Of a DNA stretch of 33,262 nucleotides, positions 776 to 26,223 are shown piece by piece. Source of the stretch: Bacteroidales bacterium. Lineage in GTDB: Bacteria; Bacteroidota; Bacteroidia; Bacteroidales; UBA10428. The translations under genes and the position numbers were made by a program. Positions within the stretch are counted from its first letter, which is position 1. The number at the start of each line of letters is the position of its first letter. Location: NCBI GenBank assembly GCA_030626465.1, contig DAOUOU010000003.1, positions 1 through 33,262 of the forward strand. The letters run 5' to 3'. The notes under the pieces were generated by a model that saw only the letters and a program-made list of their open reading frames with translations, was not told where the DNA came from and ran no database searches.

Positions 776-3700
776 ATGAGAAGCAGATTATTACTACTGT
801 TTTATATACTATTTATATTTCAATCAATATGGGCTCAAAAATACCATCCTGTAGAAAGATTTACTATTAAGCAGGGTTTATCTCACAATGATATCACAAG
901 TCTTTATCTCGACAGTAAAGGTTTTCTGTGGATTGGCACCAGCGAGGGACTAAATCGTTACGATGGATATACTTTTTATAAATATTATTCTGATTTAAAG
1001 GATATTTCTTCCATACCAAATGATCATCTTTTTAAAATACAGGGCGAAGGCGATGATAATCTTTGGTGTGCATCAGCAACCGGAATTTTTAAGCTGGATT
1101 TGAAAAACAATAGTTTCACTTCATATACTAATTTTCTGGACACACTTAACTATTCTGCTTTTTCACCAGTATATGATTTTGTTATTGATACGCTAAATAA
1201 TAAAGTCTACTATGTGGGGAAACAGTTTTTTGGTAAGTTAGACATGATATCAGGATATAGCGAACGAATTCCTCTCGGGAACAATAATCCTTTCACCAGC
1301 TTTACTCACAATTATTCTATCGAATCTTTTTCTGATAGTGACAGCATAATCATTGTTGCCGGGAATGAAATTTTTAACTACAATAACAAAAATGATACGA
1401 TCTTCCCGATATTGGATACATATACTGAATTGTTTGAAAAAGATGGTGGAATCAACGGAATTAGGTCTGGTTTAAACAATGAATTATGGATTTTTTCCAA
1501 GAAGAGAATATGGCAGTACGTTAATAATCAGCAATTGATAGAGATATCTTCTCTAAAGATTGCAGGGGATCATAACATTGAGATCATAAATATTGTCCAG
1601 AAAAATGATAGCACTCTTCAGGTTTTTACTTTCAAGCGGATAATTGAATTTGATTTTCTCAACCAATCCGTAATTTCTTTTTCTATATTTGAAATACCAT
1701 CAACTTCTACCTGTGAGATTTCATCATATCTAAAGGATCGATCTGGTATTTACTGGCTGGGTAGTGATCAAGGCTTATACAAATTCAATCCCCATATAAA
1801 TGTCTTCAAGCATTATTTTATGACTGAGGCTTTTGAAAGATCTTTTTCTTCAGATATTGCATCGGCCGTTTTCGATTCGAATGGAAAGATATGGTTAGGT
1901 CTAAGCTCCGGATACTTATTAATAGTTGATCCTGAAAGGAAAGATCTCATAAATTCCATTCTCGTCAGTAAAAACCTTAACTCAAGGATCAACTCATTGA
2001 AAATAAATAATTCAGGAAAAATATTGGTATGTACCAATAGCGGCTTAAGTGAGTTTGATGTGCCATCTAATAACCTTTATACCAATAATTCCCTGAAATC
2101 AGAAATTATTCTCCTTGATAATATCGTTTATACGGCTTATACAGATGGCCCAGATACTATCTGGATATCAACCAGTAATGGTATTTACTTTCTTGATGGA
2201 AGCAATGATGCCTTACCCAAATCTATCTCATCTGAATTACTCTCATCTGAACCATACGAAAAAATCAAATCTACTTCGGAGCATATATATTTTATGCAGA
2301 CTCACCAGCTTGCTGAATTGAATCGCGCAAACAATCAAATACAACTTATCACAATAACTGATTCAATAAAAAATAATATAAGCTATCTTAATGATATTCT
2401 CCCACTGGATAACAAGCGTTTATTAATTGCAACTTCGGATGGAATGTATGTGTATGATTCTCAGGGTAAACAGATTACCTCATTTGATTTTCATACAAAG
2501 GGAATTAATAATTGCATTAATTCCCTTTTAAAAGATAGCAATGGAGATTTATGGATAGCAACAAGCAATGAGCTGATCTCCATTGAAAATAATAAAAACA
2601 GAGTCAAGCATTATACTATTCAGGATGGTCTAAATATTGGAATATTCGGCAGGAGGGTTGCATCGGTAGCTCCTGATGGCAAATTGCTCTTTGGTGGTAA
2701 GCATGGATTTGTTACTTTTTATCCCGATTCTATCATAGCGAATAAGTATATTCCAAACATTGAATTAACGCAAGCCATATTCTCCGGGAAAAATCGAAGA
2801 TTCACTAAAAATCTGGTCGGGCTTGATACACTCTTGGTTGAACCTGAGTATCGTTATTTAAGAATTGGTTTTTCAGCATTGAACTTCTGGGCTCCGGGAA
2901 AGAACCAATACAAATATTCCTTGGAGCGTTTGGAAAGACCGGAGAATTGGATCCCGCTTTATAACCAGAATTTCATTGATGTATCAGGTTTAAAAGCCGG
3001 CATTTATCGTCTTAAAATATTGGGATCAAATAGTGATGGCATCTGGAATTCTGACTCACGCGACCTCGTAATTCAAATTAATGCTCCCATATGGCAGTCA
3101 AGGGTATCCATTCTTGTTTACGGAATTATTCTAATTATTGTATTTTATATTACAATCTATTTTAGAACCAAACAACTGAGAAAACTTAACAAGGGATATC
3201 GCGAACGAGAGCATATTGGTAAAAAAATAGAATTACAAAAGGAAGAATTAGCCATAAAAAATAAAAATATTACGGATAGCATTAATTATGCAAAACGAAT
3301 TCAAATTGCTCTGATGCCATCCCAAAAACTGTTTAAGAAATTATTTTCTGATTCTTTTATTCTTCATATTCCAAAAGATATAGTAAGTGGCGATTTTTAT
3401 TGGGTCAACGAAGTTGAAGGAAGAATATACATTGCAGCTGTCGATTGCACTGGGCATGGAGTACCGGGAGCTTTTATGTCAGTCATAGGATTTGAATTAT
3501 TTCGACGCATCACTGAAACGGAAAAGAAAAAACAGCCAGCAGAAATTTTAAACAGTCTGAATAGAGGATTTGAGTCCATTTTCAGTGATGCCGATAGTGT
3601 AATACTTCGTGACGGAATGGATGTAGCCTTTTGTGCTATCGATCAGGAAATGAAGGTTCTCGAGTTTGCAGGTGCTTTTAATCCACTTTATCTTATTCGT

Positions 3701-4027
3701 GAGAACAGCATTACTGAGATTAAAGGAGATAGATTTTCTGTTGGCTTGAATGAAGAGGAGAATGAACAAAAATCATTTAATGATCATGTTATTCCTCTTT
3801 CTAGAGGCGATGTAATTTATATTTTTACTGATGGTTTTGCCGATCAATTTGGAGGTCCGGACGGGAAAAAATACAAATACAGAAGATTTCGTCACTTATT
3901 GTTAGCATTGCATCAATTACCTATGGAACGTCAGGGTGAATTTCTTAAAAGAAGTATTTTGGATTGGAAGGGATCCCTGGACCAGGTGGATGATGTTTTG
4001 GTTGTTGGTATAAGGATTGATAAATAA
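776..4027 (+). CDS. Periplasmic propeller sensor with SpoIIE-type PP2C phosphatase output
   Basis: The 1083-residue protein has a signal peptide (MRSRLLLLFYILFIFQSIWAQ), then many Reg_prop-type blades across roughly residues 30-660 (FLWIGTSEGLNRYDG, YWLGSDQGLYKF, IWISTSNGIYFLDG and others). A Y_Y_Y Ig-like domain follows at about 680-770, one membrane helix near 776-798, a short coiled linker, and a SpoIIE/PP2C phosphatase domain from about 845. The phosphatase metal sites appear intact: SGDFYW, DCTGHGVPGAFMS and FTDGFADQFGG. This matches hybrid two-component sensors with the kinase replaced by a Ser/Thr phosphatase, probably acting on a phosphorylated anti-sigma antagonist. No such partner is encoded nearby. 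The next gene is convergent and ends one base away. The ATG at 776 is chosen because the signal peptide begins there. Confidence 0.9.
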   Translation: MRSRLLLLFYILFIFQSIWAQKYHPVERFTIKQGLSHNDITSLYLDSKGFLWIGTSEGLNRYDGYTFYKYYSDLKDISSIPNDHLFKIQGEGDDNLWCASATGIFKLDLKNNSFTSYTNFLDTLNYSAFSPVYDFVIDTLNNKVYYVGKQFFGKLDMISGYSERIPLGNNNPFTSFTHNYSIESFSDSDSIIIVAGNEIFNYNNKNDTIFPILDTYTELFEKDGGINGIRSGLNNELWIFSKKRIWQYVNNQQLIEISSLKIAGDHNIEIINIVQKNDSTLQVFTFKRIIEFDFLNQSVISFSIFEIPSTSTCEISSYLKDRSGIYWLGSDQGLYKFNPHINVFKHYFMTEAFERSFSSDIASAVFDSNGKIWLGLSSGYLLIVDPERKDLINSILVSKNLNSRINSLKINNSGKILVCTNSGLSEFDVPSNNLYTNNSLKSEIILLDNIVYTAYTDGPDTIWISTSNGIYFLDGSNDALPKSISSELLSSEPYEKIKSTSEHIYFMQTHQLAELNRANNQIQLITITDSIKNNISYLNDILPLDNKRLLIATSDGMYVYDSQGKQITSFDFHTKGINNCINSLLKDSNGDLWIATSNELISIENNKNRVKHYTIQDGLNIGIFGRRVASVAPDGKLLFGGKHGFVTFYPDSIIANKYIPNIELTQAIFSGKNRRFTKNLVGLDTLLVEPEYRYLRIGFSALNFWAPGKNQYKYSLERLERPENWIPLYNQNFIDVSGLKAGIYRLKILGSNSDGIWNSDSRDLVIQINAPIWQSRVSILVYGIILIIVFYITIYFRTKQLRKLNKGYREREHIGKKIELQKEELAIKNKNITDSINYAKRIQIALMPSQKLFKKLFSDSFILHIPKDIVSGDFYWVNEVEGRIYIAAVDCTGHGVPGAFMSVIGFELFRRITETEKKKQPAEILNSLNRGFESIFSDADSVILRDGMDVAFCAIDQEMKVLEFAGAFNPLYLIRENSITEIKGDRFSVGLNEEENEQKSFNDHVIPLSRGDVIYIFTDGFADQFGGPDGKKYKYRRFRHLLLALHQLPMERQGEFLKRSILDWKGSLDQVDDVLVVGIRIDK

Positions 4028-5932: not shown

Positions 5933-5955
5933 TTTTGACAGGAACTATTTTTATT

Positions 5956-6630
5956 ATGAGATTATTGGCCGGATTGATTTTTCTTGTACTTGTTAACCAC
6001 TGCGTTTCTTCACAGGTTGATTCCACTGAACTAGTTGAATATACAACTGATTTTCAGTTCAAAGAGGGACTATATCTTAATTTTAATCAGATAAAAACCA
6101 ATTCTCCTCTTCCAAAATCCAGAATAATCTCAACATATGATTACAATGATCCCGAATTTTTTGATAAAGTATTGTCCAAGTTGAAAGTCTTTTATTACGA
6201 TAACATTGGTAACAGGAATGAATTAAAATCTGATAATATTTGGGGATATTCCAGAAATGGATTCCTGTATATAAATATAGATGATGATTTTTTTAGAATT
6301 ACATTAATAGGAGCCATTTGTCACTTTATTGCAAGTCATACAACATACACCAATTATTATAATTCGCCCTATTACTACAATTCATATTATGATCCATATC
6401 GTATGCATCCTTCCTCATACCCAACTACAGAGATGAGACAATATTTACTGGATTTTACAACAGGAAGGGTATTGGATTATAACTTTGAATCGCTTGAAGC
6501 AATATTAATGCAGGATCCGGAATTACATGACGAATTCGTTGCTCTGAGTAAGAAAAAAAAGAAACAACTTAAATTTATTTATATACGTAAGTTCAACTCA
6601 AGAAATCCTTTATATTTTCCAAAAAATTAA
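5956..6630 (+). CDS. Secreted protein of unknown function with Tyr-rich segment
   Basis: I do not recognise this family. From the ATG at 5956 the product is 224 residues with a clear signal peptide (MRLLAGLIFLVLVNHCVSSQ), so it is exported. An in-frame TTG at 5935 is less likely because it lies almost at the end of the -7 element. The middle has a hydrophobic stretch (FFRITLIGAICHFIASHT), then a Tyr/Asn/Pro-rich patch (YNSPYYYNSYYDPY). The C-terminus is basic, with a Lys run encoded by an A8 tract (6551-6558) that could be slippage-prone. The next secreted-protein gene starts 12 bases downstream, so the two probably form an operon. Confidence 0.7.
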   Translation: MRLLAGLIFLVLVNHCVSSQVDSTELVEYTTDFQFKEGLYLNFNQIKTNSPLPKSRIISTYDYNDPEFFDKVLSKLKVFYYDNIGNRNELKSDNIWGYSRNGFLYINIDDDFFRITLIGAICHFIASHTTYTNYYNSPYYYNSYYDPYRMHPSSYPTTEMRQYLLDFTTGRVLDYNFESLEAILMQDPELHDEFVALSKKKKKQLKFIYIRKFNSRNPLYFPKN

Positions 6631-6642
6631 AAATGTTTAATC

Positions 6643-7491
6643 ATGAGAAAAACGATAATTGCTCTGATCTATAGTGCCTTGTCAACTATAATTATTGCGC
6701 AAAGTTACATCCCAAGCAGAGACGATATCAATGCCTTTTTTAACACTAAAACCATGGTAGTGTTGCTGGATAATCCCTTATTGGAATATAATATTGTAAT
6801 CAAGGAGGTAATGGAACAGGAATGGACCATCACAGAATTCGAATACATCACCTTCAAAGAATTTGAGGAGCTGAGATTTGATCCACAGTATTCTTTTCTT
6901 TATATGTCGCAGGTTACATTTGAAAATGACAAAACAGACGCGAGATACAGATTCCTTCACCTATCACTTGGCGGAGATTATTTCAGAAAGAACCAGATGC
7001 CAGATATTGCTTCTATTCCTCTATCCTACTATAATGTTGAGGAAGACAACTACATATATAAACTGGCAATTCTGGTGAGATTCATCCAGAAACATGCTTT
7101 GCTGATTAAAGATCATCCTGAGATAGTTTCAGCAAATGTTCTTCAACATTACAATAATAATATCAAGGACATAAAGGGCAAGAACCTGTATTTGCTTGAA
7201 GAAGAATTATCAGATGAAGTGAATTCCACAGCCAGGATAAAGAAAATATATTCCTACGATTTCAGGATTGTAACAAAGGAAAATATCACTGAGGCTATTG
7301 CTAACAGGGATAAGGATATTGTATTTCTCCATAAAGTTGGACCTGAAGGTACGAAAATTAATGCAAGGTGTTATAAAATTATTATTGGAGCTGCAGATGC
7401 CAATTTTTACTATTTCGATTATCATAAAATCTCAAATAAAAAACCTGATGGATTTTTAAGTCAGGATTTTAAAAAACTTGAAAGGAAATAA
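6643..7491 (+). CDS. Secreted protein of unknown function
   Basis: The 282-residue product begins with a signal peptide (MRKTIIALIYSALSTIIIAQ). No catalytic motif or known domain was recognised in the mature part, which is a mixed, soluble-looking sequence with two stretches that are rich in aromatic residues (EFEYITFKEFEELRF and ANFYYFDYHK). It starts 12 bases after the preceding secreted-protein gene on the same strand, so the two are probably co-transcribed and may work together in the periplasm or at the outer membrane. The next gene is 159 bases away, across a stretch where no clear terminator or promoter was found. Confidence 0.7.
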   Translation: MRKTIIALIYSALSTIIIAQSYIPSRDDINAFFNTKTMVVLLDNPLLEYNIVIKEVMEQEWTITEFEYITFKEFEELRFDPQYSFLYMSQVTFENDKTDARYRFLHLSLGGDYFRKNQMPDIASIPLSYYNVEEDNYIYKLAILVRFIQKHALLIKDHPEIVSANVLQHYNNNIKDIKGKNLYLLEEELSDEVNSTARIKKIYSYDFRIVTKENITEAIANRDKDIVFLHKVGPEGTKINARCYKIIIGAADANFYYFDYHKISNKKPDGFLSQDFKKLERK

Positions 7492-11876: not shown

Positions 11877-14800
11877 ATGAGGATTAACTATCAGTTTTTG
11901 TCTCTCATTTCCATTGCCTCCCTAATTTGCTTTAATGCGATTACTCAGGAGGTAATCAATACCAAAGAATTATTTATTGAGGCTGAATCTTATTTTCTGT
12001 TTGAAGAATACAGGGATGCATTACCCTTGTACCAGAAGATAATACGTACAGAACCAAATAATTATAATGTTCTCTTCAAAATTGGAGTATGTTATCTCAA
12101 CGATACCTATTTGGCAAATAAATCTTTGCAATACCTTAAACAATCTGCTGAAAACATCAATCTTAAATACAAGCGGAATAACTTTCGAGAGAAACAAGCT
12201 CCTCTTGAAGCCCTTTATTATTTTGGCAGAGCTTACCATATCAACAATATGCTTGACGAAGCCATTGAAAGTTATCAGCGTTTTAAAAATCTTGCACATC
12301 CTGATGAATTTGACATAGATATTGTCAATGAAGATATAAATGCCTGTCAGGTTGCAAAAAAGATGCTTGGCAATCCTGTATTTTTCTCACCTATAAATAT
12401 GGGTAATACAATTAATTCAAGGTTTGAAGAGATCAATCCGGTTGTTTCCGGCGATGGGAAAACATTAATATTTACAAGAAAACTACAGTTCTATGATGGG
12501 GTATTTTTAAGCAAGAAAGATGACAATGGAAATTGGTATGAACTCATAAATCTAACTTCTGATTTTGGATTGGATGGGAATACTTACTCATGCGGAATTT
12601 CCTATTTTGGAGATGAAATTTTTGTGTATCGAAGTGACAATTATGACGGTAATATTTATTCCAGCAAACTTGTTGGAGATAATTGGGGAAGATTAATCAA
12701 ATTGAACTTTAACATCAACACCAAATTCTGGGAATCGCATGCAACTCCTTCACCAGACGGACAATACCTATATTTCACTTCAAATCGTACCGGCGGATAT
12801 GGAGGCCTTGATATTTATAAATCAAAGAAAGGCGCAAAAGGAGAGTGGGGATCTGCAGTAAACCTTGGCCCGGTTATTAACTCTCCTTATAATGAAGACA
12901 CACCTTTTTTAAGTAACGAAGGATATACAATTTTTTTTAGTTCTCAAGGGCATGAAACAATGGGAGGTTATGATATTTTTGTAAGCAATTTAAAGAGCAA
13001 TGGTACCTGGAGTAAACCAAAAAATATGGGTTCTCCGGTTAATACTACCAACGACGATTTATTTTATAATCCGATAGGAGTAAATTCTTTTGGTTACTAT
13101 TCCTTGTTTGATGAATCAAGTTCTTTTGGCATGTTGGACATTTATAAGATTGAAGTGTATAATGAGATGATTCCTCGAAGTTTTGAGGTAAAGGGACAGT
13201 TAAACGTTGCTGATGCCAGTTCGAGATTTTATAAAAAGCTTACTGCAAAACTTATTGATACAGAAACAAGGGAAATAGTTAACGAAACCATGGTTGAAGG
13301 AGACGGGAGTATTTCATTACCCGCCTCACAGGGCGCATATATTTTAGTAATTGAGGGGCAGGAAGTTGAATCTTACCAGAAAGAAATAATCCTTTCCCTT
13401 ACACAACCTGAGACAATTGTTGTTTTGCCTGCAATGAATTTAGTGAAAACTGACAGTAAAACACCTCCTGTAGAAATTGGATCACCAGTAAAAGAAAAGA
13501 TAGTAGCAAAAAGCGATTTCTATGCAGTAAGTGATTCAAGTGTTGTTCCTATTTCCCTTATCATTCCAAAAGGATCCGATTTGAATATTGAGGTTTCGGT
13601 TAACGACAGATTTGGCTATTCAGAACGGTTAGAATCTGTTAATAAGAGATTTACATATTTCTACAAACCAAAACCAGGAGAAAATCTATTAAAGTTTACG
13701 GCTACTGATAAAGATGGAGTTATTTCTTCAACAGAAGTTGTAGTTACCTATTATTTGCCTTATGTGGCTGAAAAAGAAATTAAATTACAGGAAAAGGAAG
13801 CTATTCTGTCGTTGTATGCCAAATCGTTTGATTTGTTAGCAGTAGGAGCATTGCAGGAGTATTTGCATGAGATAGAAACCTCTGATTTCAAGAGCTATTA
13901 CCATTTGTATACTCATCTTTTAGAAGTATCAGAGGAAAAGGGATTTATAAAGAAAGATATTGACGAGGTCTTTTCCATATATTTTACACAAAAGAGCATT
14001 ATACTATTCGATCTGGAGCTTAAAAAAGCATATTCAGAACAAGACAGTAATTGGCAACGTGTTCTTGATAGTTCAACTATCCCTATAATCTATATTCAAA
14101 CTCTTCTAAAGAAAAAACTTGTTTTAGAAAAGAACATACAGGAAGCATTACTGAAAATTGTATCAGATAAATTTGAGAGTGGTAAAGAGACATACAATTA
14201 TCTGTTAGGATTTCATAGGAATACAGATGAGTTTTCCATAAAAGACATTGATATGGCAACATCCGTTCAGGCCTGGGAATTGCTTTCAAACAATATTGGT
14301 GATAAGGATGCTTATTCCTTACTTCAACTGGCATCTACTACCGAAGGCCTGGATTATTTTTACCAGAATTTATTAGCAGCTTCAACAGATAGTTTGCATG
14401 ATTATCTGACAAGTATACAATTTGAACCTCTGGGGATTAATAATTCGGTTGATTTGACCGAACATTTGTTTGATATTGCATCCCAGGGAAGCTTTACTTT
14501 GGCAGAACTTATTAAAATTCTGGAACTGGTCTCAAATAATAAAAAGTATTATTTGAATTCTTTTAACGAGGTACTTACCAATAGTGCAAGAGGCACTTTA
14601 AAATCACAACTTTTACTGCTTAATATGGATGAAAAGCAGATTCACAGTTACGAAGGATTATTGCGGTATCTTGTTGAACAATCCCAACATAAAGATTTCT
14701 CAAGAGAAGAAGTGTATAACTTACTTCTCGAATTGATAGGTATTACAGATATTAATGTATTTGCACATAAAATAAAATCTTATAGTATTGCCTCAATCAA

Positions 14801-15083
14801 TAAGGCTCTTGCAGATACTTCATTAAAATATTTTTCAAATCCATTTGAGCTATTGCAATATCTTTTAGTTTCGGTTCAGGATTACGACTTCACTGAGTCT
14901 GATATCAATAATTTACTCATAAGAATGATTTTGGAACGTGGACTTGCAGAGGGAATTGATAAAAATTATGATGTGGATGAAAAGAAAATTTGGAAGAACA
15001 AGAATTTCCTGACATCCATTATCTTAGTAAATATCGTAATATTGATATTAATTATTCTCCTATCCCGACGTAGAAAAAAATAA
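11877..15083 (+). CDS. PorE-like TPR/PD40 protein with helical-repeat tail and C-terminal membrane anchor
   Basis: This is the first of four tandem paralogues. The 1068 residues read: signal peptide (1-24), TPR region (about 28-165), PD40/WD40-like propeller (about 170-425, with YFTSNRTGGYGGLDIY, FFSSQGHETMGGYDIF and NTTNDDLFY), carboxypeptidase-regulatory-like beta domain (about 434-510) and Ig-like segment (about 548-627). A long helical region (640-1035) then replaces the OmpA domain. Within it a ~28-residue motif of the form LLxYLxxxxxxxF[ST]xx[DE][IV]xxLL recurs about six times. A C-terminal helix (FLTSIILVNIVILILIILL) with a basic tail suggests anchoring in a membrane, unlike the OmpA paralogues. 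TPR, propeller and regulatory-like domains are as in PorE of the type IX secretion system. The next gene begins 11 bases later. Confidence 0.85.
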   Translation: MRINYQFLSLISIASLICFNAITQEVINTKELFIEAESYFLFEEYRDALPLYQKIIRTEPNNYNVLFKIGVCYLNDTYLANKSLQYLKQSAENINLKYKRNNFREKQAPLEALYYFGRAYHINNMLDEAIESYQRFKNLAHPDEFDIDIVNEDINACQVAKKMLGNPVFFSPINMGNTINSRFEEINPVVSGDGKTLIFTRKLQFYDGVFLSKKDDNGNWYELINLTSDFGLDGNTYSCGISYFGDEIFVYRSDNYDGNIYSSKLVGDNWGRLIKLNFNINTKFWESHATPSPDGQYLYFTSNRTGGYGGLDIYKSKKGAKGEWGSAVNLGPVINSPYNEDTPFLSNEGYTIFFSSQGHETMGGYDIFVSNLKSNGTWSKPKNMGSPVNTTNDDLFYNPIGVNSFGYYSLFDESSSFGMLDIYKIEVYNEMIPRSFEVKGQLNVADASSRFYKKLTAKLIDTETREIVNETMVEGDGSISLPASQGAYILVIEGQEVESYQKEIILSLTQPETIVVLPAMNLVKTDSKTPPVEIGSPVKEKIVAKSDFYAVSDSSVVPISLIIPKGSDLNIEVSVNDRFGYSERLESVNKRFTYFYKPKPGENLLKFTATDKDGVISSTEVVVTYYLPYVAEKEIKLQEKEAILSLYAKSFDLLAVGALQEYLHEIETSDFKSYYHLYTHLLEVSEEKGFIKKDIDEVFSIYFTQKSIILFDLELKKAYSEQDSNWQRVLDSSTIPIIYIQTLLKKKLVLEKNIQEALLKIVSDKFESGKETYNYLLGFHRNTDEFSIKDIDMATSVQAWELLSNNIGDKDAYSLLQLASTTEGLDYFYQNLLAASTDSLHDYLTSIQFEPLGINNSVDLTEHLFDIASQGSFTLAELIKILELVSNNKKYYLNSFNEVLTNSARGTLKSQLLLLNMDEKQIHSYEGLLRYLVEQSQHKDFSREEVYNLLLELIGITDINVFAHKIKSYSIASINKALADTSLKYFSNPFELLQYLLVSVQDYDFTESDINNLLIRMILERGLAEGIDKNYDVDEKKIWKNKNFLTSIILVNIVILILIILLSRRRKK

Positions 15084-15094
15084 TAGCCAAGTAT

Positions 15095-17104
15095 ATGAAA
15101 TATTGCCTATATTCAGCACTAGTACTCATCTTACAGACAATTTTTATTGTAGATATTCCCGCTCAAATCTGGCTTTCAAATAAGGATATATATAATGAGG
15201 CAGAAGAATACCTGCACGCCAATGAATACATAGAGGCTCTGCCTCTTTATATGTTACTTGAGAAAAAAGAAGTAATAAATGCCAATATCTCTTATAAAAT
15301 TGGTATATGTTATTTGAATATCCGGGGTAAAAAGAATAGGTCAATTCCATATCTGGAAAGTGCCAGCCAAAATGTAAGGTATGATTATCAAAATACTGTT
15401 GAGGAAACAAATGCTCCGCTCAAGGCGATTCTCTTATTAGGTGTAGCATACAGAATAAATAACGAACTAAAAAAAGCGATTAAAACTTTTGAATCACTTC
15501 GAGATAAGGTGGCAATTAGTGACTCGGAGCTGGATGCAATAATCGATATGCATATCAAACGATGCGAAAATGCTATTCTTCTGGGTGCTTTCCCGGGAGA
15601 ACCGCGTACTGAGAAACTTCCGGATCATATAAATAATGAATTTTCAAATTTCAATCCTGTTTTGGTTGACCATGACAGAGTATTGTACTATATGGAAGAA
15701 CTGAAGTTTTATGATGCTTTAATGCGTGTGGAAAGTGATAATGATAGTTGGGGTATGCCTGAAAACTTAACACCAAAAATTGGAAGTGATGGGGATCATA
15801 TACTTGTTGGTGCATCATCCGATGGAAAAACATTGCTGCTATACATATATGAAGCCCTGAAGGCAGGTGAAATTTACTCCATTCAATTTGCTGATGGTGG
15901 CTGGTCTAAACTAAAGCCACTGAATAAAAATATTAACACAAAGTATCACGAAACACATGCCAGTTATTCGGCAAAGAATGAGACCCTGTATTTTACAAGT
16001 AATCGTCCCGAAGGTTATGGAGGCTTGGATATTTATATGTCAAAACTTGACGAAAATAACAACTGGGGACCTGCGGTAAATCTGGGACCAATTATTAATA
16101 CCCCCTACAACGAAGAAACTCCCATTATCAATAACGATGATAATATTCTGTATTTTAGTTCACAGGGGCATCTGAATATGGGAGGATACGATGTTTTTCA
16201 TTCCTTGCGTAAAGAAAAAAACGAGTGGAGACAACCGATCAATATGGGATCGCCGGTATCAACAACCGATGATGACCTTTTTTATTTTCCTCTTGAAAGT
16301 GGTATTTCCGGATTAATGTCACGTCTGGAAGAGTCCAATTCAACTGCATACGACATATACCGTTACAATAGCATGGTGTTTGCAAATTCTCCCCGGTTTG
16401 ATGTAAGGGGAAAAGTACAATCGGTTGATAGTTCAAATTACATAGATCACCAGGTAATAGTTGTTAATAATGAAACATCAGACACACTTATAAGCAGAAT
16501 TCCTGAACCGGATGGAAATTACGAAATATTATTGCCTGCAGGAAATTTTTCGATTCTTGTTTTTGATCAGAAGGGAAATATTAGTTCCGGCACGGTAATT
16601 CTCGAAGATGGAGATACCGAGAAGGAAGTAATTACAGGAACTCTCGCTCAAAGGGTTGATAGTATTGAATCAGAGGAAATAAGAAGAGATACCGTGTATC
16701 TAAAACATTTGCTTTTTGGTTTTGATAATCATGTATTTTCAACCGTATACAAGAATTATCTCGATACCATAATCAGTATTATGCACAAATATCCCTCTCT
16801 TGTAATTAACATTGAAGGATATACAGATGCAATTGGTAGCGAGAATTATAATCTTTATCTTTCAAGGCGACGGGCAAACGCCGTTGCCAGATATCTCCTT
16901 TCTGATAATATTGGCCAGGAAAGGATTAAGGTTATAGCCCATGGAGAATCCAATCCGATTGCAATTAACACAAATACAGATGGGACTGATTGTTCTGATG
17001 GACGAAGATATAACAGAAGAGTTGAACTCGTACCTCAACAGGATACATCAGAAGTTATCTTTGTTATAGAGATTCATATGCCTGAAAGACTAAAACAGAA
17101 GTAA
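15095..17104 (+). CDS. PorE-like TPR/PD40/CRD/OmpA protein
   Basis: The second paralogue has 669 residues: signal peptide (to about 24), TPR region (28-165), PD40 propeller (170-425; TLYFTSNRPEGYGGLDIY, YFSSQGHLNMGGYDVF), carboxypeptidase-regulatory-like domain (about 433-505) and OmpA-like domain (534-646). The OmpA domain keeps the peptidoglycan-binding residues: Asp578 in GYTDAIGSENYN and Arg641/642 in YNRRVE. This is the full PorE domain order. PorE is an outer-membrane-associated periplasmic protein that ties the type IX system to peptidoglycan; whether this one serves that system is inference. It aligns with the upstream paralogue almost without gaps over the first ~425 residues and starts 11 bases after it, so the two are probably one operon. 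The C-terminal tail after OmpA (PERLKQK) is shared with the third paralogue. Confidence 0.88.
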   Translation: MKYCLYSALVLILQTIFIVDIPAQIWLSNKDIYNEAEEYLHANEYIEALPLYMLLEKKEVINANISYKIGICYLNIRGKKNRSIPYLESASQNVRYDYQNTVEETNAPLKAILLLGVAYRINNELKKAIKTFESLRDKVAISDSELDAIIDMHIKRCENAILLGAFPGEPRTEKLPDHINNEFSNFNPVLVDHDRVLYYMEELKFYDALMRVESDNDSWGMPENLTPKIGSDGDHILVGASSDGKTLLLYIYEALKAGEIYSIQFADGGWSKLKPLNKNINTKYHETHASYSAKNETLYFTSNRPEGYGGLDIYMSKLDENNNWGPAVNLGPIINTPYNEETPIINNDDNILYFSSQGHLNMGGYDVFHSLRKEKNEWRQPINMGSPVSTTDDDLFYFPLESGISGLMSRLEESNSTAYDIYRYNSMVFANSPRFDVRGKVQSVDSSNYIDHQVIVVNNETSDTLISRIPEPDGNYEILLPAGNFSILVFDQKGNISSGTVILEDGDTEKEVITGTLAQRVDSIESEEIRRDTVYLKHLLFGFDNHVFSTVYKNYLDTIISIMHKYPSLVINIEGYTDAIGSENYNLYLSRRRANAVARYLLSDNIGQERIKVIAHGESNPIAINTNTDGTDCSDGRRYNRRVELVPQQDTSEVIFVIEIHMPERLKQK

Positions 17105-17247: not shown

Positions 17248-19110
17248 ATGAAAAGGCTGATTATTATCTTAATACTGGTTCATTATGTGGGATTCAGTTC
17301 TTTTGGGCAAAAAAGTGAAAGTGAAATTGCTTTGAAAGAATATTTTATCGATGCTGAGTTTTTTCTTGCTCAGGAATTCTATATAGACGCGCTTAACGAT
17401 TATTTACAGGTTTACAGAAGAGGGTATGATAATAATGCAAATATCAATTACAGAATAGGTATCTGTTATTTGAATATTCCGGGGCAAAAAGAAAAATCCA
17501 TTCAGTATTTTGAAACTGCTAAAACATCAGTATCTGCAAAATATCGTGAAAGTAGCCTTAAAGAAAAGAATGCTGCCATTGATGTTTATCTATACCTTGG
17601 TAATGCTTATAGGGTAAACAACAGATTGGATGATGCTATTCGTTCTTATAAAGAATATAAGAAACTTTTGCCCGAGAATGAATCAAATTTGCATAAATAT
17701 GCTGACCAGCAGATTGAGGCCTGCAATATTGCCAGCGAATTCATGAAACATCCGATAGATGTTGAATTTTCTAATCTTGGTCCTGTTATCAATAACAGTG
17801 GTGAAAACTACAAAGCTGTGGTTTCAGGAGACGGATCAGTTCTTGTTTATATGAATCGGTTGCCTTTTTATGATGCGGTATCTTTTTCCAGGAATATTGG
17901 TGGAGAGTGGTCAGAACCTGAAAATATTACGCCTCAGATAATGTCTGATGGAAACCAATTTGTCACTTCTTTATCGTATGATGGCACCATGCTCCTTCTT
18001 ACAAAGGAAGATGAATTCAATAGTGATGTACTTGTCAGTCATTATGTAGATAACAGATGGACAAAATCTGAACTCCTGGGCTCAAACATTAATACAAAAT
18101 ACTGGGAGTCTCATGCCTGCATTTCAAAAGATGGTAAAACACTTTATTTTACAAGTAACCGCAAAGGAGGAATAGGAGACATGGACATCTATGTTTCTCA
18201 TCTGACCGCAGAGGGGAAGTGGGGACCGGCGATAAATCTGGGCACTGACATTAACACCAAACTTAATGAAGATACTCCATTTATTACTGAAGATGGTCAA
18301 CAACTTTATTTTGGCTCACAGGGATTTACAAGCATGGGAGGTTATGATATATTTGAATCAAAATTGGAAGGTGAGGGGAAATGGTCTGTACCTGAGAATC
18401 TGGGTTTTCCGATAAACACAACAGATGATGATTTGTTTTACTATCCTTGGAACAATGGTGTAGTGGCATACATGGAAAAAATACAAGAGGATAGTTATGG
18501 TGCTACCGATATATATAAAGTTATATATCCTTTAAAAATCGATGAAAGTATTGCACAACAAGTTATTCCTGTTGATACAAAACCTGATACGACAACCGGG
18601 ATCATTCCGGCACCATTGACAGAGATGCCGGAATCTTCCGAAATTAGAGAAGAACCTGAGCAGACGCTTGAAATAGCGGAGGTTAAAACCATTGCTATTT
18701 CTCCCGTCTTTTTTGGCTTTGATAAATCGATTCTAACTGAAAAGGGCAAGGAAGAATTACACAAGATCGTTGATTTGCTCAGGCAAAATTCGCATATACG
18801 TGTAGAACTGATTGGGTATACTGATCCTTTAGGACCAGCTTATTATAACGTAAGATTGGCAGAAAAAAGAGCAGTATCAGCCATGAATTTCCTTATTGAA
18901 CAGGGGATTGATGCTGATCGGCTAAAAGCAATTGGAAAAGGTGAAGTTGATTTTATCGCAGTGAACACCAATAAAGACGGATCAGATAATAGTAAGGGCA
19001 GAAAATACAATCGCAGAGTCGAATTTGAGATAACAGGTGTTGATAACAATACCTTAATTATAAAGCGGATTGATCCGGTGCCAGAGCATTTGAAAATTCA
19101 ACAGAAATAA
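17248..19110 (+). CDS. PorE-like TPR/PD40/OmpA protein lacking the CRD domain
   Basis: The third paralogue has 620 residues: signal peptide (MKRLIIILILVHYVGFSSFG), TPR region (about 28-165), PD40 propeller (about 170-425; TLYFTSNRKGGIGDMDIY, YFGSQGFTSMGGYDIF, NTTDDDLFYYP), then an acidic Pro/Thr/Glu-rich linker (about 430-480) where its upstream paralogue has the beta domain. The OmpA-like domain follows (about 482-596) with Asp526 (GYTDPLG) and Arg589/590 (YNRRVE), so it should bind peptidoglycan. The tail (VPEHLKIQQK) resembles that of the second paralogue. It has its own likely -7 element upstream and is followed by an intrinsic terminator (19118-19147), so it appears to be a single-gene unit. 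Confidence 0.88.
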   Translation: MKRLIIILILVHYVGFSSFGQKSESEIALKEYFIDAEFFLAQEFYIDALNDYLQVYRRGYDNNANINYRIGICYLNIPGQKEKSIQYFETAKTSVSAKYRESSLKEKNAAIDVYLYLGNAYRVNNRLDDAIRSYKEYKKLLPENESNLHKYADQQIEACNIASEFMKHPIDVEFSNLGPVINNSGENYKAVVSGDGSVLVYMNRLPFYDAVSFSRNIGGEWSEPENITPQIMSDGNQFVTSLSYDGTMLLLTKEDEFNSDVLVSHYVDNRWTKSELLGSNINTKYWESHACISKDGKTLYFTSNRKGGIGDMDIYVSHLTAEGKWGPAINLGTDINTKLNEDTPFITEDGQQLYFGSQGFTSMGGYDIFESKLEGEGKWSVPENLGFPINTTDDDLFYYPWNNGVVAYMEKIQEDSYGATDIYKVIYPLKIDESIAQQVIPVDTKPDTTTGIIPAPLTEMPESSEIREEPEQTLEIAEVKTIAISPVFFGFDKSILTEKGKEELHKIVDLLRQNSHIRVELIGYTDPLGPAYYNVRLAEKRAVSAMNFLIEQGIDADRLKAIGKGEVDFIAVNTNKDGSDNSKGRKYNRRVEFEITGVDNNTLIIKRIDPVPEHLKIQQK

Positions 19111-19209: not shown

Positions 19210-19230
19210 AATTAACCAAACTTGCTATCG

Positions 19231-20562
19231 ATGAAAATGTTTCTTTCATGCCTGTTTATAGCATTCGTTATAGGCTTTACTACAATACAGACTTTTTGCC
19301 AAAATGATAATGCAATTAGTGAAAACTTTAGAGAAGGTGAGTATTTCTTTAAAAGGGGAGAATATAAAAATGCAGTGATGTATTATATCAAACTGGTAGC
19401 AATAGACTCGCTTAATTCAAATTATAATTTTAAGGTTGGAGAATGTTATCTGAATATTCCTTCAAAGGAGCATCTTGCAATACCTTATTTTGAAGTAGCG
19501 GTAAAAAATGTTGTACCAAAGAAAAAGTATAAGAGAAGGTCGCAGGAAGAAAGGAACGCTCCATTGCATGCATATTTTTATCTGGGCAATGCTTATCGTA
19601 TCAATAACAAATTGGATAAGGCTTTGGAGAGCTATGCAAAGTTTATTGATTCTCCCTTTTTTTGGGGCAACTATAATCCGGGTATTGTCGAGCGGGAAAT
19701 CAAGTCCTGCGAAAGAGCAAAAATTATTCAAGATGCTCCTATTGAATATGAAAAAATAAATCTTGGAGAGGCAATTAATTCGCGTTTCTCAGAAGAAAGA
19801 CCTGTTGTATCGGGTGACGGGAATACACTAGTATTCATAAGACGCTTACAATTCTACGATGCTATATTTTACTCTGTGAAGGAGAATGGCAAATGGCGAA
19901 AAGCGAAAAATATTAATCCGCAAATTTTATCTGATGGTGAATTCTACCCTTCAGGGTTATCGCACGATGGAAGTCAATTGCTATTAATAAAAAAAGAATC
20001 AGAGACAAGCAATATTTATATTTCGTATCTTGAAGTAGACAACTGGTCAGAAGCCATAGAAGCAGATAATAATCTGAATTCAAATTCATCCGAAATACAT
20101 GCAAGTTTCGATCGGGAAGGAAATACTATTTATATAACTAGCAACAGATCAAAGAGCAAAGGTGGTTATGATATTTTTAAATCGAAACTTACTTCAAAAG
20201 GAACATGGAGCAAGCCTAAGAATCTGGGGAAGACAATTAATTCCGAATTCAATGAACAGGGAGCATATAATTATTCAATTCCCGGCGTACTCTTTTTTTC
20301 CTCCAAAGGGCATTATAACATGGGAGGCTTTGACATCTTTTATAGCAGAAGAACAGGTAAGAAATGGTCCATACCGGTAAACATTGGATATCCAATTAAT
20401 GATACTCGTGACAATCTGAATTATTGTCCTTCAGAGAAACTGAAAGAAGGATATTATGCTATCAATGATTCCCAAGGACTTGGCCAGTCTGATATATTTC
20501 TTATAAAAATTAAATCACTAAGTGTGTTGAATTTTGAACTGGAAGATGAGAAGGAACAATGA
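19231..20562 (+). CDS. Short PorE-like TPR/PD40 protein without OmpA domain
   Basis: The fourth paralogue has 443 residues from the ATG at 19231: signal peptide (MKMFLSCLFIAFVIGFTTIQTFCQ), TPR region and PD40 propeller (IYITSNRSKSKGGYDIF, FFSSKGHYNMGGFDIF), ending right after the propeller (QSDIFLIKIKSLSVLNFELEDEKEQ). An in-frame TTG at 19222 would add three residues and lies closer to the -7 element, so the ATG is preferred. With no OmpA, CRD or membrane anchor it should be a soluble periplasmic or surface-exposed member, perhaps a partner or competitor of the larger paralogues. The stop codon overlaps the ATG of a seven-codon reading frame (ATGA at 20559), then a degraded-looking ORF follows. 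Confidence 0.82.
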   Translation: MKMFLSCLFIAFVIGFTTIQTFCQNDNAISENFREGEYFFKRGEYKNAVMYYIKLVAIDSLNSNYNFKVGECYLNIPSKEHLAIPYFEVAVKNVVPKKKYKRRSQEERNAPLHAYFYLGNAYRINNKLDKALESYAKFIDSPFFWGNYNPGIVEREIKSCERAKIIQDAPIEYEKINLGEAINSRFSEERPVVSGDGNTLVFIRRLQFYDAIFYSVKENGKWRKAKNINPQILSDGEFYPSGLSHDGSQLLLIKKESETSNIYISYLEVDNWSEAIEADNNLNSNSSEIHASFDREGNTIYITSNRSKSKGGYDIFKSKLTSKGTWSKPKNLGKTINSEFNEQGAYNYSIPGVLFFSSKGHYNMGGFDIFYSRRTGKKWSIPVNIGYPINDTRDNLNYCPSEKLKEGYYAINDSQGLGQSDIFLIKIKSLSVLNFELEDEKEQ

Positions 20563-21286: not shown

Positions 21287-21422
21287 CATTTTTAATAAGT
21301 TAAATAAACAAATTCAAATATTATTTATAACTTAAGTGCATTAACAGCATAATATGGTTTGCACTGGGAAAGGAAATACTCCTGCTTCTATAAAATATCA
21401 ATTACCCTTGAGCCTTATTATT

Positions 21423-23006
21423 ATGAGAAGGAAAGTTATTGAGTACATTATACTGATTTTTATTTGCTCATGTTCTTTTCAAGCAAAAGCTCAGAGTCTG
21501 ATCGCTTTAAAGGATTATGTTATCAAAAAAGACAAATTTGCAGTCGATAAGGCCATTGACAAAATAAAAGAGGCAGGAGAACTCACGCAGGAAGCCAATA
21601 ATTACTATAATGAGGCATTGGAACTACAATCGAATTATAAGCTTGATGAACAGACACTTCAGAAAAAGTTAGCAAAGGTTGAGAAGAAGGCACTGGAAAC
21701 CCAGATGAAAGCAGATAAAATCTATACTTCTGCCTATAAGTCTTTGTATGAAATATGCCAGAAAACTCTACAAGCCACTGGCACTGTTACTTATGGTGAT
21801 GCGGATAGTTTTATAGAAACAGCCGAAGAAATGATGAATAATGCTTCATCAAAAAGAAAGGAAGCATCGGGTGTTACTAATCCATATGAAAAAGCAGCAA
21901 TGCTGAATGATGCAGCAGGAATGGAAAATACTGCAATTGAGAATATGATCGTGGCGTTTAAGGCACAGGCAGGAGAAGATGTTACATCGGCTATGGCAGA
22001 ATCAACTGCTGAGGAATATTATGATTACCAGGAAGAAAGTTATGCCTCTTCTCAGGAAGAGTCATATACCAGTGAGGTATATCAAGTTAGTGAAAATCTG
22101 GCAATCGACAAGAATATAATCCAAAAGTATGAGGATTATGTATCAGACGAATCTATACCTGATCCAATAATGATAAATCGTTCAGGAGTAGTTGGAGTAT
22201 CTGAAGCATCGGTAGATCAGGCAAGGATAATTCTTCATGAGTACACAACAGGAGATATCAGTGCAATGTATACGGACAAAGAACCTTCATTGGCTATCCT
22301 GGATTCCATTAGCAGCATAACTCAGACAGAAGAAGTCACTGGTACTATTGATGATGAATATGCAAGTCAGTACGAGGAGAGAATCATAGAGATGGAGGAG
22401 CCTACCGAAGCAAGAGAAGTTTTTGACATAAGTTATGTGACGCAATCTAAAGGGGTTCGGTTCATGGTGCAATTGGCGGCAAGCAGAATCCCTCTTAATC
22501 GTGCTCAGATGTGGGCTATTTATCCGGGCAATCTTACCATTGGAGTTATCAGAGAAGATAACTGGTACAAGTATCGCATAACAGGATTCAGACTTTTTTC
22601 AGAGGCAAACCGGGTTGCAATTAAATCAGGTGTTAAATATGCCTGGGTTTTATCATCAAACGATGGGATCTTAATAAACCTTGTAGAGGCAAGAGACATG
22701 ACGAGGGTTTTGGAAGCTGATGTAAAACGGAGAGGTAGAGGTGTTATTGAAAATGAAACTGATTTCTTTGTGCAGGTTTTGGCTTCCAAAATAAGACTAA
22801 ACGAGCAGGAGATGAATAGCCATTGCGGTTATTCAGGCCGTTGCAGAGAAATAATTGAAGAAGGATGGTTCAAATATCAAATTTATGCTGGCACATCTTA
22901 CCAGGAGGCGCTCTCGTTGAAAAATGAGATTACCGGTAAGTCATTTATTGTTACATATAAAGCCGGATCTAAACAAAATCTATATAAAGCTATACATAAC
23001 AAGTAA
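21423..23006 (+). CDS. Secreted coiled-coil protein with two SPOR-like repeats
   Basis: From the ATG at 21423 the 527-residue product has a signal peptide (MRRKVIEYIILIFICSCSFQAKAQ). An earlier in-frame ATG at 21354 would bury the signal, so the later start is preferred. Residues about 35-185 are helical and Lys/Glu/Ala-rich, probably a coiled coil. Residues 190-345 are acidic and low complexity (YYDYQEESYASSQEESY). Two SPOR-like units follow at about 346-415 (RFMVQLAASRIPLNRAQM) and 447-515 (FFVQVLASKIRLNEQEM), each with a WYKYRI/WFKYQI strand. SPOR domains bind peptidoglycan with denuded glycans, so a periplasmic cell-wall role is likely. It ends 20 bases before the Wza-like gene and may be co-transcribed with the export genes. 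Confidence 0.8.
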   Translation: MRRKVIEYIILIFICSCSFQAKAQSLIALKDYVIKKDKFAVDKAIDKIKEAGELTQEANNYYNEALELQSNYKLDEQTLQKKLAKVEKKALETQMKADKIYTSAYKSLYEICQKTLQATGTVTYGDADSFIETAEEMMNNASSKRKEASGVTNPYEKAAMLNDAAGMENTAIENMIVAFKAQAGEDVTSAMAESTAEEYYDYQEESYASSQEESYTSEVYQVSENLAIDKNIIQKYEDYVSDESIPDPIMINRSGVVGVSEASVDQARIILHEYTTGDISAMYTDKEPSLAILDSISSITQTEEVTGTIDDEYASQYEERIIEMEEPTEAREVFDISYVTQSKGVRFMVQLAASRIPLNRAQMWAIYPGNLTIGVIREDNWYKYRITGFRLFSEANRVAIKSGVKYAWVLSSNDGILINLVEARDMTRVLEADVKRRGRGVIENETDFFVQVLASKIRLNEQEMNSHCGYSGRCREIIEEGWFKYQIYAGTSYQEALSLKNEITGKSFIVTYKAGSKQNLYKAIHNK

Positions 23007-23025
23007 TTACTTTAAATCTATTGAT

Positions 23026-23811
23026 ATGGAACGTATTTACAACCAACGGATTAGAATGCTGATTTTTGCTATTTTACCAGTAGCACTGGTAATGACCTCT
23101 TGTGTTTCACAAAAGAAAGTGAAACTGATTCAGGAAAGAGTAAACAAGGAAATGACCACTCAATTTGAGAATCCTCGTACTACTACTTACCGGATTCAAA
23201 CCGGGGATCATATATACATTCGTGTGTATAGTGTAGATCCTAAGACAAGTAAATTTTTTCAGTCGGATTTTCCTTACCTGATGAATTCAACATACCAATA
23301 CTTAAATACTTATGTTGTTGATGAGTTTGGATATATCTCCTTCTCATTTATCGAGAAATTGTATGTAAAAGGATTAACCATTCAGGAAGTTCAACAATCT
23401 ATCCAGACGCAGCTCGATGAGTATTTTAAGGAAGCAACTGCTTATGTGAAGCTTGTAAATTTTCAGGTTGGCGTTCTGGGAGATGTTAACTCACCCGGAA
23501 ATTATACGATTGAACAAGACCAGATCAATGTATTTCAGGCTATTGGTCTTGCTGGCGGAATAACAGATTTTGGAAATTATAAAGAAGTAAAAATAATAAG
23601 ACAAACTCAAAACGGATCAGAGGTTTATATTCTTGATTTAACAGATAACCGAATTCTTGAATCACCTTATTATTATATGTTGCCTAATGATGTACTCTAT
23701 ATTGAACCTCGAAATTCTAAATCGTGGGCATATAGTAAGTTTCCATATCAAACCTTATTTTACTTCTTTTCTGTGGCTATTTTAGGTGCTGCTTTGTATT
23801 TAAACTACTAA
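23026..23811 (+). CDS. Wza-like polysaccharide export lipoprotein
   Basis: The 262-residue product starts at the ATG at 23026 and carries a lipobox (LVMTSC, Cys26), so it should be an outer-membrane lipoprotein. A poly_export domain follows (TTYRIQTGDHIYIRVYSVD, VDEFGYISF), then a SLBB-like domain (VGVLGDVNSPGNYTIEQDQINVFQAIGLAGG). A final hydrophobic helix (TLFYFFSVAILGAALYL) may cross the outer membrane as in Wza. Longer in-frame starts exist further upstream but overlap the SPOR gene and lack the lipobox context. It forms the outer-membrane channel of a Wzx/Wzy-type exopolysaccharide exporter. The kinase partner starts 15 bases downstream. Confidence 0.9.
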   Translation: MERIYNQRIRMLIFAILPVALVMTSCVSQKKVKLIQERVNKEMTTQFENPRTTTYRIQTGDHIYIRVYSVDPKTSKFFQSDFPYLMNSTYQYLNTYVVDEFGYISFSFIEKLYVKGLTIQEVQQSIQTQLDEYFKEATAYVKLVNFQVGVLGDVNSPGNYTIEQDQINVFQAIGLAGGITDFGNYKEVKIIRQTQNGSEVYILDLTDNRILESPYYYMLPNDVLYIEPRNSKSWAYSKFPYQTLFYFFSVAILGAALYLNY

Positions 23812-23826
23812 TGCTGGGGTATCTTA

Positions 23827-26223
23827 ATGAATGATGAGAATCTGATAGCGGTTGAGGAGCAGGGTATTGATTTACAAAAATGGCTTAGACTTTTTTTACA
23901 CAACTGGCTGCTTTTTTTCATCAGTGTTTTAATTGCGCTGATAGCTGCAGTTGTCTTTATCAGACTTTCAACAACTCAATATGAGTTAACAACTCACGTT
24001 CTGGTAAATAAAGAGCATAATCCGCTGGATAAATCAGAGCTTTTCTCTACGCTTTATACAGATCCATATCAATTAGAAAACGAAAAGGGTGTATTAAGGG
24101 CCAAAACAATCACAAGCCGGACTTTACAACAATTGGATTTTCAAACCAGCTACTATGTTAACCAGCGATTCAACAAAGTAGAATTATACAACAACACTCC
24201 AATTACGGTTGAGATGGATACTACCCATCTTCAACCTCTTGGGATCTACTTTTCAGCAATATTCTTAAGTGATACTTTAATAGAACTTGAGGCAGAAGGT
24301 GAGGATGTCGTTTTGTACGATTTCTCAAACAATCAGGTGCAACAAATAATACCTGAATTCAAATTTTCAGATACAGTGAAATTTGGGCAGATAACAGGCA
24401 ATTCCTATTGCAGGTTTACGATCTTGCCTGGATATGCTTATGTCACAAACCAGGATTTAGACAAGAATTACCTTTACAGATTTCATTCATTGAGTGAACT
24501 GATTCGTACGTTTCGTCATTTCAAAATTGAAAACGATCGTGGTTCTTCCATATTAACAGTTTCTTTTCGATACAGACATCCACAAAAAGCAGCCGATTTT
24601 TTAAACAAACTGATCAGGGAATATTTGGTCAGGGGGGTTGAACGTGATAATCAGATTGCCGAAGCAACAATTCGGTTTATCGATGCACAATTGATAGATA
24701 TTGTTGACTCTTTGCATCTATCAGGCGAACGTCTGCAAGATTTCCAGTCTTCCAAACAGGTATTGGATATTGGTTTTCAGGCAGAGAAGGTATACACAAA
24801 GCTTGAAGTTCTTGAAGCAGAAAGAGCCAAATTGCTGGTTAAAAAGAGATATTTTAATTATTTGCTTCAAAACCTTCAGACCAAGTCGGATATAAATGAC
24901 TTAATAGCACCTACTACACTCGAAATTAATGACCCGGTATTAAACAATCTTATTATAGAGCTGGCAGATCTTTATAGCGAAAGAGCTGAAATTTCCTTTA
25001 TTTCTATTAAGAACAATCCCTATCTAAGCTCTCTTGAAGTGCAGATTAACAATACAAGACGCAAGCTGATGGATGCTGCACGAACAGTTCTCGAAGCAAC
25101 CGAAATAACCATTGAAGAAACCGATGCCCAGATTTACAGTGCGGAGCAGACATTAAATCGTTTGCCAAAAGATCAACAGCAGTTATTGAATATAGAACGT
25201 AAATTTAAATTGAATGATGAGCTTTATACCTATCTGCTTACCCGCCGATCGGAGATGGAAATTTTTAAAGCATCCAATTTGCCCGCAAATGAGATTCTTG
25301 ATCGGGCTGATCCCGATGATGCCCAGGCTGTATCACCGAATGTGAGATTGAATCTTATTGTTGCATTGATGCTCGGATTCTTTTTTCCCGGAGCGTTGAT
25401 CTATCTTCGTGAGACACTGAATAATAAGATACGTACCAGGGAAGATATACAAAAGCTTTCTGCTTTACCAATTATTGGACAGGTCATTGATTCAAAATTT
25501 AGTTTTTTCCCGGCCGTGCTGAGTAAGCCAAATTCTGTATTAACAGAATCGTATCGTACATTGCGGACCAACCTTCAATTTGTAATTGATGAAGCCGTAT
25601 CGAATGCTGTACTGATAACATCAGCAATTCAAGGCGAGGGAAAAAGTTTTACTGCTTTGAATTTAGCATCTGTATACGCCTTTTATGGAAAGAAAACAGT
25701 ATTGGTTGATTTTGACTTAAGAAAATCGCAGCTAAAAGAAAATCTTGGAATAGAAAAAGATATGGGTTTAAGCAATTATCTTAGTAAAAATGCCGACTAC
25801 AAAGAGATAATATACACGAATGATAAAATAAACTTTGATCTCATACTCTCTGGTCCTGTTCCGCCAAATCCATCGGAACTGATCGCTTCATCACAAACTG
25901 ATATTCTTTTTGATAAGATGAGAAAGGATTATGATCTGATAATTATTGATTCTCCTCCTTTGGGAGTAGTATCAGATGCACTTCTCATATACCCTCATAC
26001 CGATATTTCATTATTGGTAGTTCGATACAATTTTACTTCAATGGAAGTGTTTGAAAATGTTATAGAAGATCTGAAAACTCGCAAAATAGAAAAAATCAAT
26101 ATAATCTTAAACGATGTAATCATTTCCAAATCAAAGTATGGCTATGGCTATGGTTATGGATACGGGTACGGTTATCTTGAAAGCAGGCAGAGAAAAAAAA
26201 GATTTTGGAGCAAAAGGCAATAA
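23827..26223 (+). CDS. Wzc-like polysaccharide co-polymerase and tyrosine autokinase
   Basis: The 798-residue inner-membrane protein has a first membrane helix at about 25-45, a Wzz-type periplasmic chain-length domain with long coiled segments (about 50-505), and a second helix at about 508-526. The cytosolic BY-kinase domain has Walker A IQGEGKS (601-607), Walker A' VLVDFDLRK (625-633) and Walker B LIIIDSPP (704-711). A Tyr-cluster tail follows: seven Tyr alternating with Gly at 771-783, then basic residues. Wzc cycles phosphate on such Tyr clusters to control exopolysaccharide polymerisation and export with the Wza channel encoded just upstream. No flippase, polymerase or other glycosyltransferase gene lies adjacent, so the rest of the pathway must be elsewhere. 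Confidence 0.93.
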   Translation: MNDENLIAVEEQGIDLQKWLRLFLHNWLLFFISVLIALIAAVVFIRLSTTQYELTTHVLVNKEHNPLDKSELFSTLYTDPYQLENEKGVLRAKTITSRTLQQLDFQTSYYVNQRFNKVELYNNTPITVEMDTTHLQPLGIYFSAIFLSDTLIELEAEGEDVVLYDFSNNQVQQIIPEFKFSDTVKFGQITGNSYCRFTILPGYAYVTNQDLDKNYLYRFHSLSELIRTFRHFKIENDRGSSILTVSFRYRHPQKAADFLNKLIREYLVRGVERDNQIAEATIRFIDAQLIDIVDSLHLSGERLQDFQSSKQVLDIGFQAEKVYTKLEVLEAERAKLLVKKRYFNYLLQNLQTKSDINDLIAPTTLEINDPVLNNLIIELADLYSERAEISFISIKNNPYLSSLEVQINNTRRKLMDAARTVLEATEITIEETDAQIYSAEQTLNRLPKDQQQLLNIERKFKLNDELYTYLLTRRSEMEIFKASNLPANEILDRADPDDAQAVSPNVRLNLIVALMLGFFFPGALIYLRETLNNKIRTREDIQKLSALPIIGQVIDSKFSFFPAVLSKPNSVLTESYRTLRTNLQFVIDEAVSNAVLITSAIQGEGKSFTALNLASVYAFYGKKTVLVDFDLRKSQLKENLGIEKDMGLSNYLSKNADYKEIIYTNDKINFDLILSGPVPPNPSELIASSQTDILFDKMRKDYDLIIIDSPPLGVVSDALLIYPHTDISLLVVRYNFTSMEVFENVIEDLKTRKIEKINIILNDVIISKSKYGYGYGYGYGYGYLESRQRKKRFWSKRQ
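26137..26175 (+). repeat. Tyr-Gly repeat tract in the Wzc tail
   Basis: Alternating TAT/TAC and GGN codons encode seven Tyr interleaved with Gly. The units are imperfect in the third codon position, which suggests selection for the peptide rather than recent slippage. Confidence 0.8.

Follow-up and report, generated by a model that had tools for sequence, protein, structure and literature searches.

A Bacteroidales protein with a previously unnamed four-helix repeat between a TPR-PD40 head and a C-terminal membrane helix: a candidate inner-membrane tether

The locus and its TPR-PD40 proteins

The window (the whole stretch of 33,262 nucleotides that was analysed, from a genome that is 70% complete) contains a gene at 11877–15083 which encodes a product of 1068 residues. 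From the N-terminus to the C-terminus, the protein consists of a signal peptide, TPRs, a PD40 propeller, a CRD-like segment with a further conserved segment, helical repeats, a transmembrane (TM) helix, and a basic tail (Table 1). Its orthologues also carry signal peptides of the cleavable type without a lipobox. We infer that a segment within residues ~436–640 probably forms a β-sandwich, an assignment made independently of structure prediction, and Pfam gave nothing above cut-off for this region.

Table 1. Features of the repeat protein and its paralogues in the window. Coordinates of the TPR, CRD-like and β segments are approximate.
Feature	Residues	Nucleotides	Strand	Basis or remark
Sec signal peptide	1–~24	11877–11948	+	Read from the sequence; no lipobox by eye
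TPR region	~36–140	11982–12296	+	Pfam TPR all below gathering score; NCBIfam CHU_0125/PorE N-terminal match
PD40 β-propeller	~168–430	12378–13166	+	PF07676, E 5e-21, three stretches
CRD-like and further conserved, probably β-sandwich segment	~436–640	13182–13796	+	Aligned in all orthologues
Repeat unit 1	649–713	13821–14015	+	HMM 42.9 bits; helices in model
Repeat unit 2, degenerate	~708–763	13998–14165	+	Four model helices; visible to HMM in six-unit orthologues, not in window
Repeat unit 3, degenerate, helix B unformed	~769–821	14181–14339	+	Model; visible to HMM in six-unit orthologues
Repeat unit 4	826–898	14352–14570	+	HMM 53.6 bits; both models
Repeat unit 5	894–964	14556–14768	+	HMM 64.9 bits; both models
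Repeat unit 6	960–1028	14754–14960	+	HMM 56.1 bits; both models
C-terminal TM helix	~1044–1062	15006–15062	+	Hydrophobic helix in all homologues whose C-terminus is complete
Basic tail RRRKK	1064–1068	15066–15080	+	Sequence; homologues basic there too
TPR-PD40-OmpA paralogue, adjacent		15095–17104	+	Pfam; next to the repeat gene in most loci of f1
Second TPR-PD40-OmpA paralogue		17248–19110	+	Pfam; most persistent partner across families
TPR-PD40 paralogue, ends after propeller		19222–20562	+	No OmpA, no membrane anchor; conserved in cluster

The TPR-PD40 part found its best NCBIfam match in the CHU_0125 family (NF053607, E 6.8e-44), for which the protein scores 150.4 bits, below the cut-off of 620. 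The preliminary description had called the protein PorE-like, which is right insofar as the TPR and propeller are common with PorE. However, the protein reaches only 128.8 bits with the PorE model NF052230 (cut-off 600). The genome encodes a true PorE elsewhere, on contig C81, with 671.6 bits. Of the TPR and PD40 domains by which PorE is recognized, PD40 was found above the gathering score and the TPR models below it.

In family f1 and several other families, the repeat gene usually lies directly upstream of the OmpA-bearing TPR-PD40 paralogues. A glycosyltransferase/sugar-transferase gene (8464 in the window) is usually found upstream of the repeat gene; a dihydrolipoamide acyltransferase gene (10429) often separates the two but is absent in some loci. 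Where the repeat protein is missing, the glycosyltransferase neighbourhood is usually devoid of the whole gene group; in two loci, L098 and L104, a single TPR-PD40 protein related to 17248 occurs and the repeat protein is absent. Because the repeat gene of L102 (family f38) has no OmpA paralogue beside it, this neighbour is not obligatory.

In the rest of the window, ORFs 5935–6630 and 6643–7491, whose order is conserved in the f1 loci, have no Pfam match at E ≤ 0.01, and 776–4027 encodes a fusion of a Reg_prop/Y_Y_Y sensor with a SpoIIE phosphatase; the adjoining gene, for a hybrid histidine kinase, runs on the other strand. Downstream, 22924–26223 encodes a Wza-like export protein and a Wzc-like kinase. 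Only a part of the related loci include the Wza-like gene, so exopolysaccharide export does not always go with the cluster. ORFs 21354–23006 and 22924–23811 overlap by 83 bases, the second probably starting further downstream.

Repeat units and their structural model

A helical repeat had been proposed for residues 640–1035 from a short motif occurring about six times, and it proved to be real. When the motif was relaxed, four sites that missed no more than 2 of its 10 positions were found in this region, compared with 0.49 expected, and none of 1000 shuffles reached four sites. Looser matches (fewer than 8 of 10 positions) were not above chance, so that four of the proposed copies stand out on sequence whereas the other two sites do not. 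An HMM built in a first round from nine units of L050 and L051, two proteins whose families differ from that of the window but lie in its order, detected four domains in the held-out window protein with a whole-protein E value of 1.9e-27, and 4–10 domains, some of them weak, in most other homologues held out of its building. The HMM was iterated for three rounds with the window's own units taken in, the first round being the only independent test. In its iterated form, it scored window units 1, 4, 5, and 6 at 43–65 bits, compared with at most 8 bits in 500 shuffles, and found nothing beyond chance in the neighbouring ORFs, including the OmpA paralogues.

The repeat region spans residues ~649–1028, and the true repeat unit comprises ~68 residues forming helices A–D. 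The short motif, which had been taken as the unit, covers only helices C and D in its second half. The spacing had been described as irregular, yet it is regular, because successive units mostly lie 65–68 residues apart in relatives with six clean units; the 112 residues between window units 1 and 4 hold two degenerate copies (units 2 and 3). Pairwise Smith-Waterman comparison of the window units was clear only for units 5 and 6 and for units 1 and 5 (marginal for 1 and 4 and for 1 and 6), so the window alone is insufficient to prove six units. Units 2 and 3 are assigned from the structural model and the six-unit relatives.

An AlphaFold model of residues 640–1068, which had been suggested as a check, was computed with 18 orthologues and predicts six four-helix units (unit 3 without helix B); a linker predicted with low confidence leads from them to the TM helix. 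The pLDDT was 86.4 and the pTM 0.83. The last three units alone were predicted with a pLDDT of 93.6 and a pTM of 0.89. Five of the six motif positions fit the C-D hairpins in the model (674–703, 736–763, 857–887, 925–954, and 989–1020), but the third, given as 770–797, is out of register with its hairpin at ~796–821.

The preliminary description recognized no known repeat family, in agreement with our searches. Pfam assigned no family to residues 641–1068 of the window protein, and Pfam and NCBIfam returned only sub-threshold, mutually inconsistent matches for the repeat regions of the homologues. Sequence searches of the PDB gave adenylosuccinate lyase at E 0.048 as the best match of the whole repeat region and E 0.084 as the best value for a single repeat unit, both of which were taken as chance. 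In Foldseek searches, neither the six-unit nor the three-unit model matched anything in the PDB at E ≤ 0.001, and the three-unit model had no match among viral models. The helical repeat has not been named before, and neither Pfam, NCBIfam, the PDB sequences, nor the PDB folds gave a match for it, the statement on folds holding for the PDB and viral structure libraries and for a method that can miss helical repeats.

The weakness of Foldseek on helical repeats and the restriction to these libraries leave some room for a diverged known repeat, such as TPR, HEAT, annexin or similar, an ancestry that would be compatible with any functional reading. We consider this rather unlikely. The repeat does resemble TPR and HEAT solenoids in having tandem helical units in an array, but it differs from them in having four helices per ~68-residue unit and in lacking any match above cut-off in Pfam or a convincing one in the PDB, and the uneven A–D pattern does not correspond to two ~34-residue TPRs; no TPR model matches the repeat.

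Distribution, copy number, and phylogeny

Of 118 relatives, 26 carried a homologue, and so did 31 of 393 genomes of the order, with the window's own genome counted in both; a search with a single unit identified 23 of 247 order genomes, again including the own genome and a few weak matches. Approximately 8–9% of the sampled Bacteroidales genomes carry homologues. The named records with the repeat protein are Bacteroidales MAGs, and the matches of one genome in the tabulated set generally fall within one open frame. A first scan of genome contigs with a single protein as the query returned no homologues. In a sample of the class (n = 395), the window's own genome was the sole match, and a single-unit search of a phylum sample (n = 396) gave the own genome and three weak partial matches only; both samples contain some non-matching genomes of the order. 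The three phylum matches cover ~32 residues of ~355-residue proteins at E values of 7e-6 to 5e-4 and were not accepted as members. Beyond Bacteroidales, there was no convincing homologue among the genomes sampled.

This distribution bears on whether the protein could be a dedicated component of the type IX secretion system (T9SS) replacing PorE. Its TPR-propeller part resembles PorE, and SprA is encoded in the window's genome and in most relatives (SprA_N in 56 of 60). Nevertheless, the genome already has its true PorE, and because SprA_N is far more widespread than the repeat protein, the latter is not a general T9SS part. We therefore regard such a replacement as very improbable.

The number of units per homologue ranges from 1 (L052) to ~10 (L053 and L064, in which some units are weak). 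In a midpoint-rooted tree of the TPR-propeller parts of 99 TPR-PD40 proteins, the 25 repeat-bearing proteins form an exclusive clade with a support of 0.974, which suggests a single acquisition of the repeat followed by expansion and loss of units. In the alignment from the repeats to the tail, 13 of the 17 invariant columns fall in units 5 and 6, nearest the membrane, and most remaining unit positions vary among homologues.

Membrane topology and a possible tether function

As noted previously, a membrane helix with a basic tail occupies the C-terminus of the protein, where two paralogues have OmpA; no OmpA domain was found by Pfam in the repeat protein itself. The basic tail is clear in nearly all homologues with a complete C-terminus and weaker in L075 and L076, and the C-termini of L064–L066 are cut off at the locus edge. 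Within the TM helix, Asn1052 (15030–15032) is conserved in almost all of the aligned proteins, which is unusual for a plain anchor; more distant homologues often have no matching Asn.

By the positive-inside rule, the basic flank of a TM helix lies on the cytoplasmic side. The signal peptide without a lipobox, the periplasmic-type domains, the C-terminal TM helix, and the positive tail together suggest an inner-membrane protein with a periplasmic body and a cytoplasmic tail. A link to a membrane is the likeliest reading, and the signal peptide and the positive tail point to the inner membrane. PEP-CTERM and GlyGly-CTERM signals also consist of a TM helix and a short basic tail at the extreme C-terminus, and the homologues gave weak matches to the GGIII-CTERM and LPXTG models; the C-terminus could then be a sorting signal cut by an exosortase/rhombosortase-like enzyme, with the mature protein released or attached elsewhere. 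As all of these matches are below cut-off and the alignments show no common short motif ahead of the TM helix, processing of this kind appears improbable.

We favour, at a probability of roughly one half, a Sec-exported, single-pass inner-membrane tether or scaffold in which the solenoid links the periplasmic head to the C-terminal TM helix and sets or spans a distance. Sec export and signal-peptide cleavage would place the TPR, propeller, and β segments in the periplasm, where the solenoid of four-helix repeats (~68 residues per unit) would join them to the TM helix, with the basic tail behind it reaching the cytoplasm. The TPR-propeller head may bind envelope partners, perhaps the paralogues with OmpA from the neighbouring genes, for which binding to peptidoglycan is expected; the choice of these partners is a guess from gene order. 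The solenoid would then serve as an arm of adjustable length, either fixing how far the head stands from the inner membrane or bridging that gap flexibly.

A stack of repeats ending in a membrane anchor probably links the propeller with the inner membrane, and the constancy of the head and anchor combined with a varying unit number fits a tether with an arm that is longer in some species than in others. On the other hand, L102 lacks the adjacent OmpA paralogue, the tails of L075 and L076 are less basic, and the solenoid length is not strictly kept, given the degeneration of units 2 and 3 in the window's genus. In addition, a weakly constrained binding surface would also vary in copy number. 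Protein binding is the usual task of helical solenoids, and the repeat region may be mainly a binding platform in the style of TPR/HEAT solenoids, the anchor only localising it and length being secondary. The near-invariant residues in units 5 and 6 would agree with this, whereas the range of 1 to ~10 copies with head and anchor constant and the variability of most other unit positions argue against it, and we hold such a platform to be possible but doubtful.

The anatomy of the protein is well supported: the repeats, their model, the TM helix and tail, the clade, and the gene neighbours come from computation, whereas the topology, the inner-membrane location, the binding of partners, and the role as a spacer are inferred. 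In Bacteroidota, the TPR-PD40-OmpA proteins make up a family that takes part in type IX secretion and in keeping the envelope intact, and they have been described as outer-membrane or peptidoglycan-bound. If the topology is correct, an inner-membrane-anchored member with its own repeat of variable length would hint at how TPR-PD40-OmpA systems bridge the envelope. The repeat also adds an unnamed family that annotation pipelines have overlooked.

Among the known proteins, PorE (NF052230; PG1058 of Porphyromonas gingivalis) shares the TPR, PD40 propeller, CRD-like segment, and periplasmic export with the repeat protein, which differs from it in having helical repeats and a TM helix instead of OmpA and in the lack of a visible lipobox. 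The repeat protein is also unlike the CHU_0125 family in having a C-terminal membrane anchor and no OmpA domain. Published work places PorE, with its TPR, propeller, CRD, and OmpA domains, in the periplasm in association with the outer membrane (PMC5053529), and deletion of CHU_0125 impairs outer-membrane integrity (PMC5891637). No member with a C-terminal TM helix is described in the covered parts of these two papers, which came from a light, open-access literature search.

In its most specific form, our interpretation is tentative: the repeats might constitute a new Bacteroidales-restricted family that acts as a length-tuned inner-membrane arm carrying a TPR-propeller head and bridging to the cell wall with the OmpA paralogues, resembling TolA/TolB in a single chain. 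TolB provides a PD40 propeller in the periplasm, and TolA provides a helical arm extending from an inner-membrane TM helix. The likeness to the repeat protein, which would combine these two elements, is one of analogy only. In contrast to TolA and TolB, the repeat protein has both parts in one chain and its TM helix at the C-terminus, and its helical units are unrelated to theirs by the searches run.
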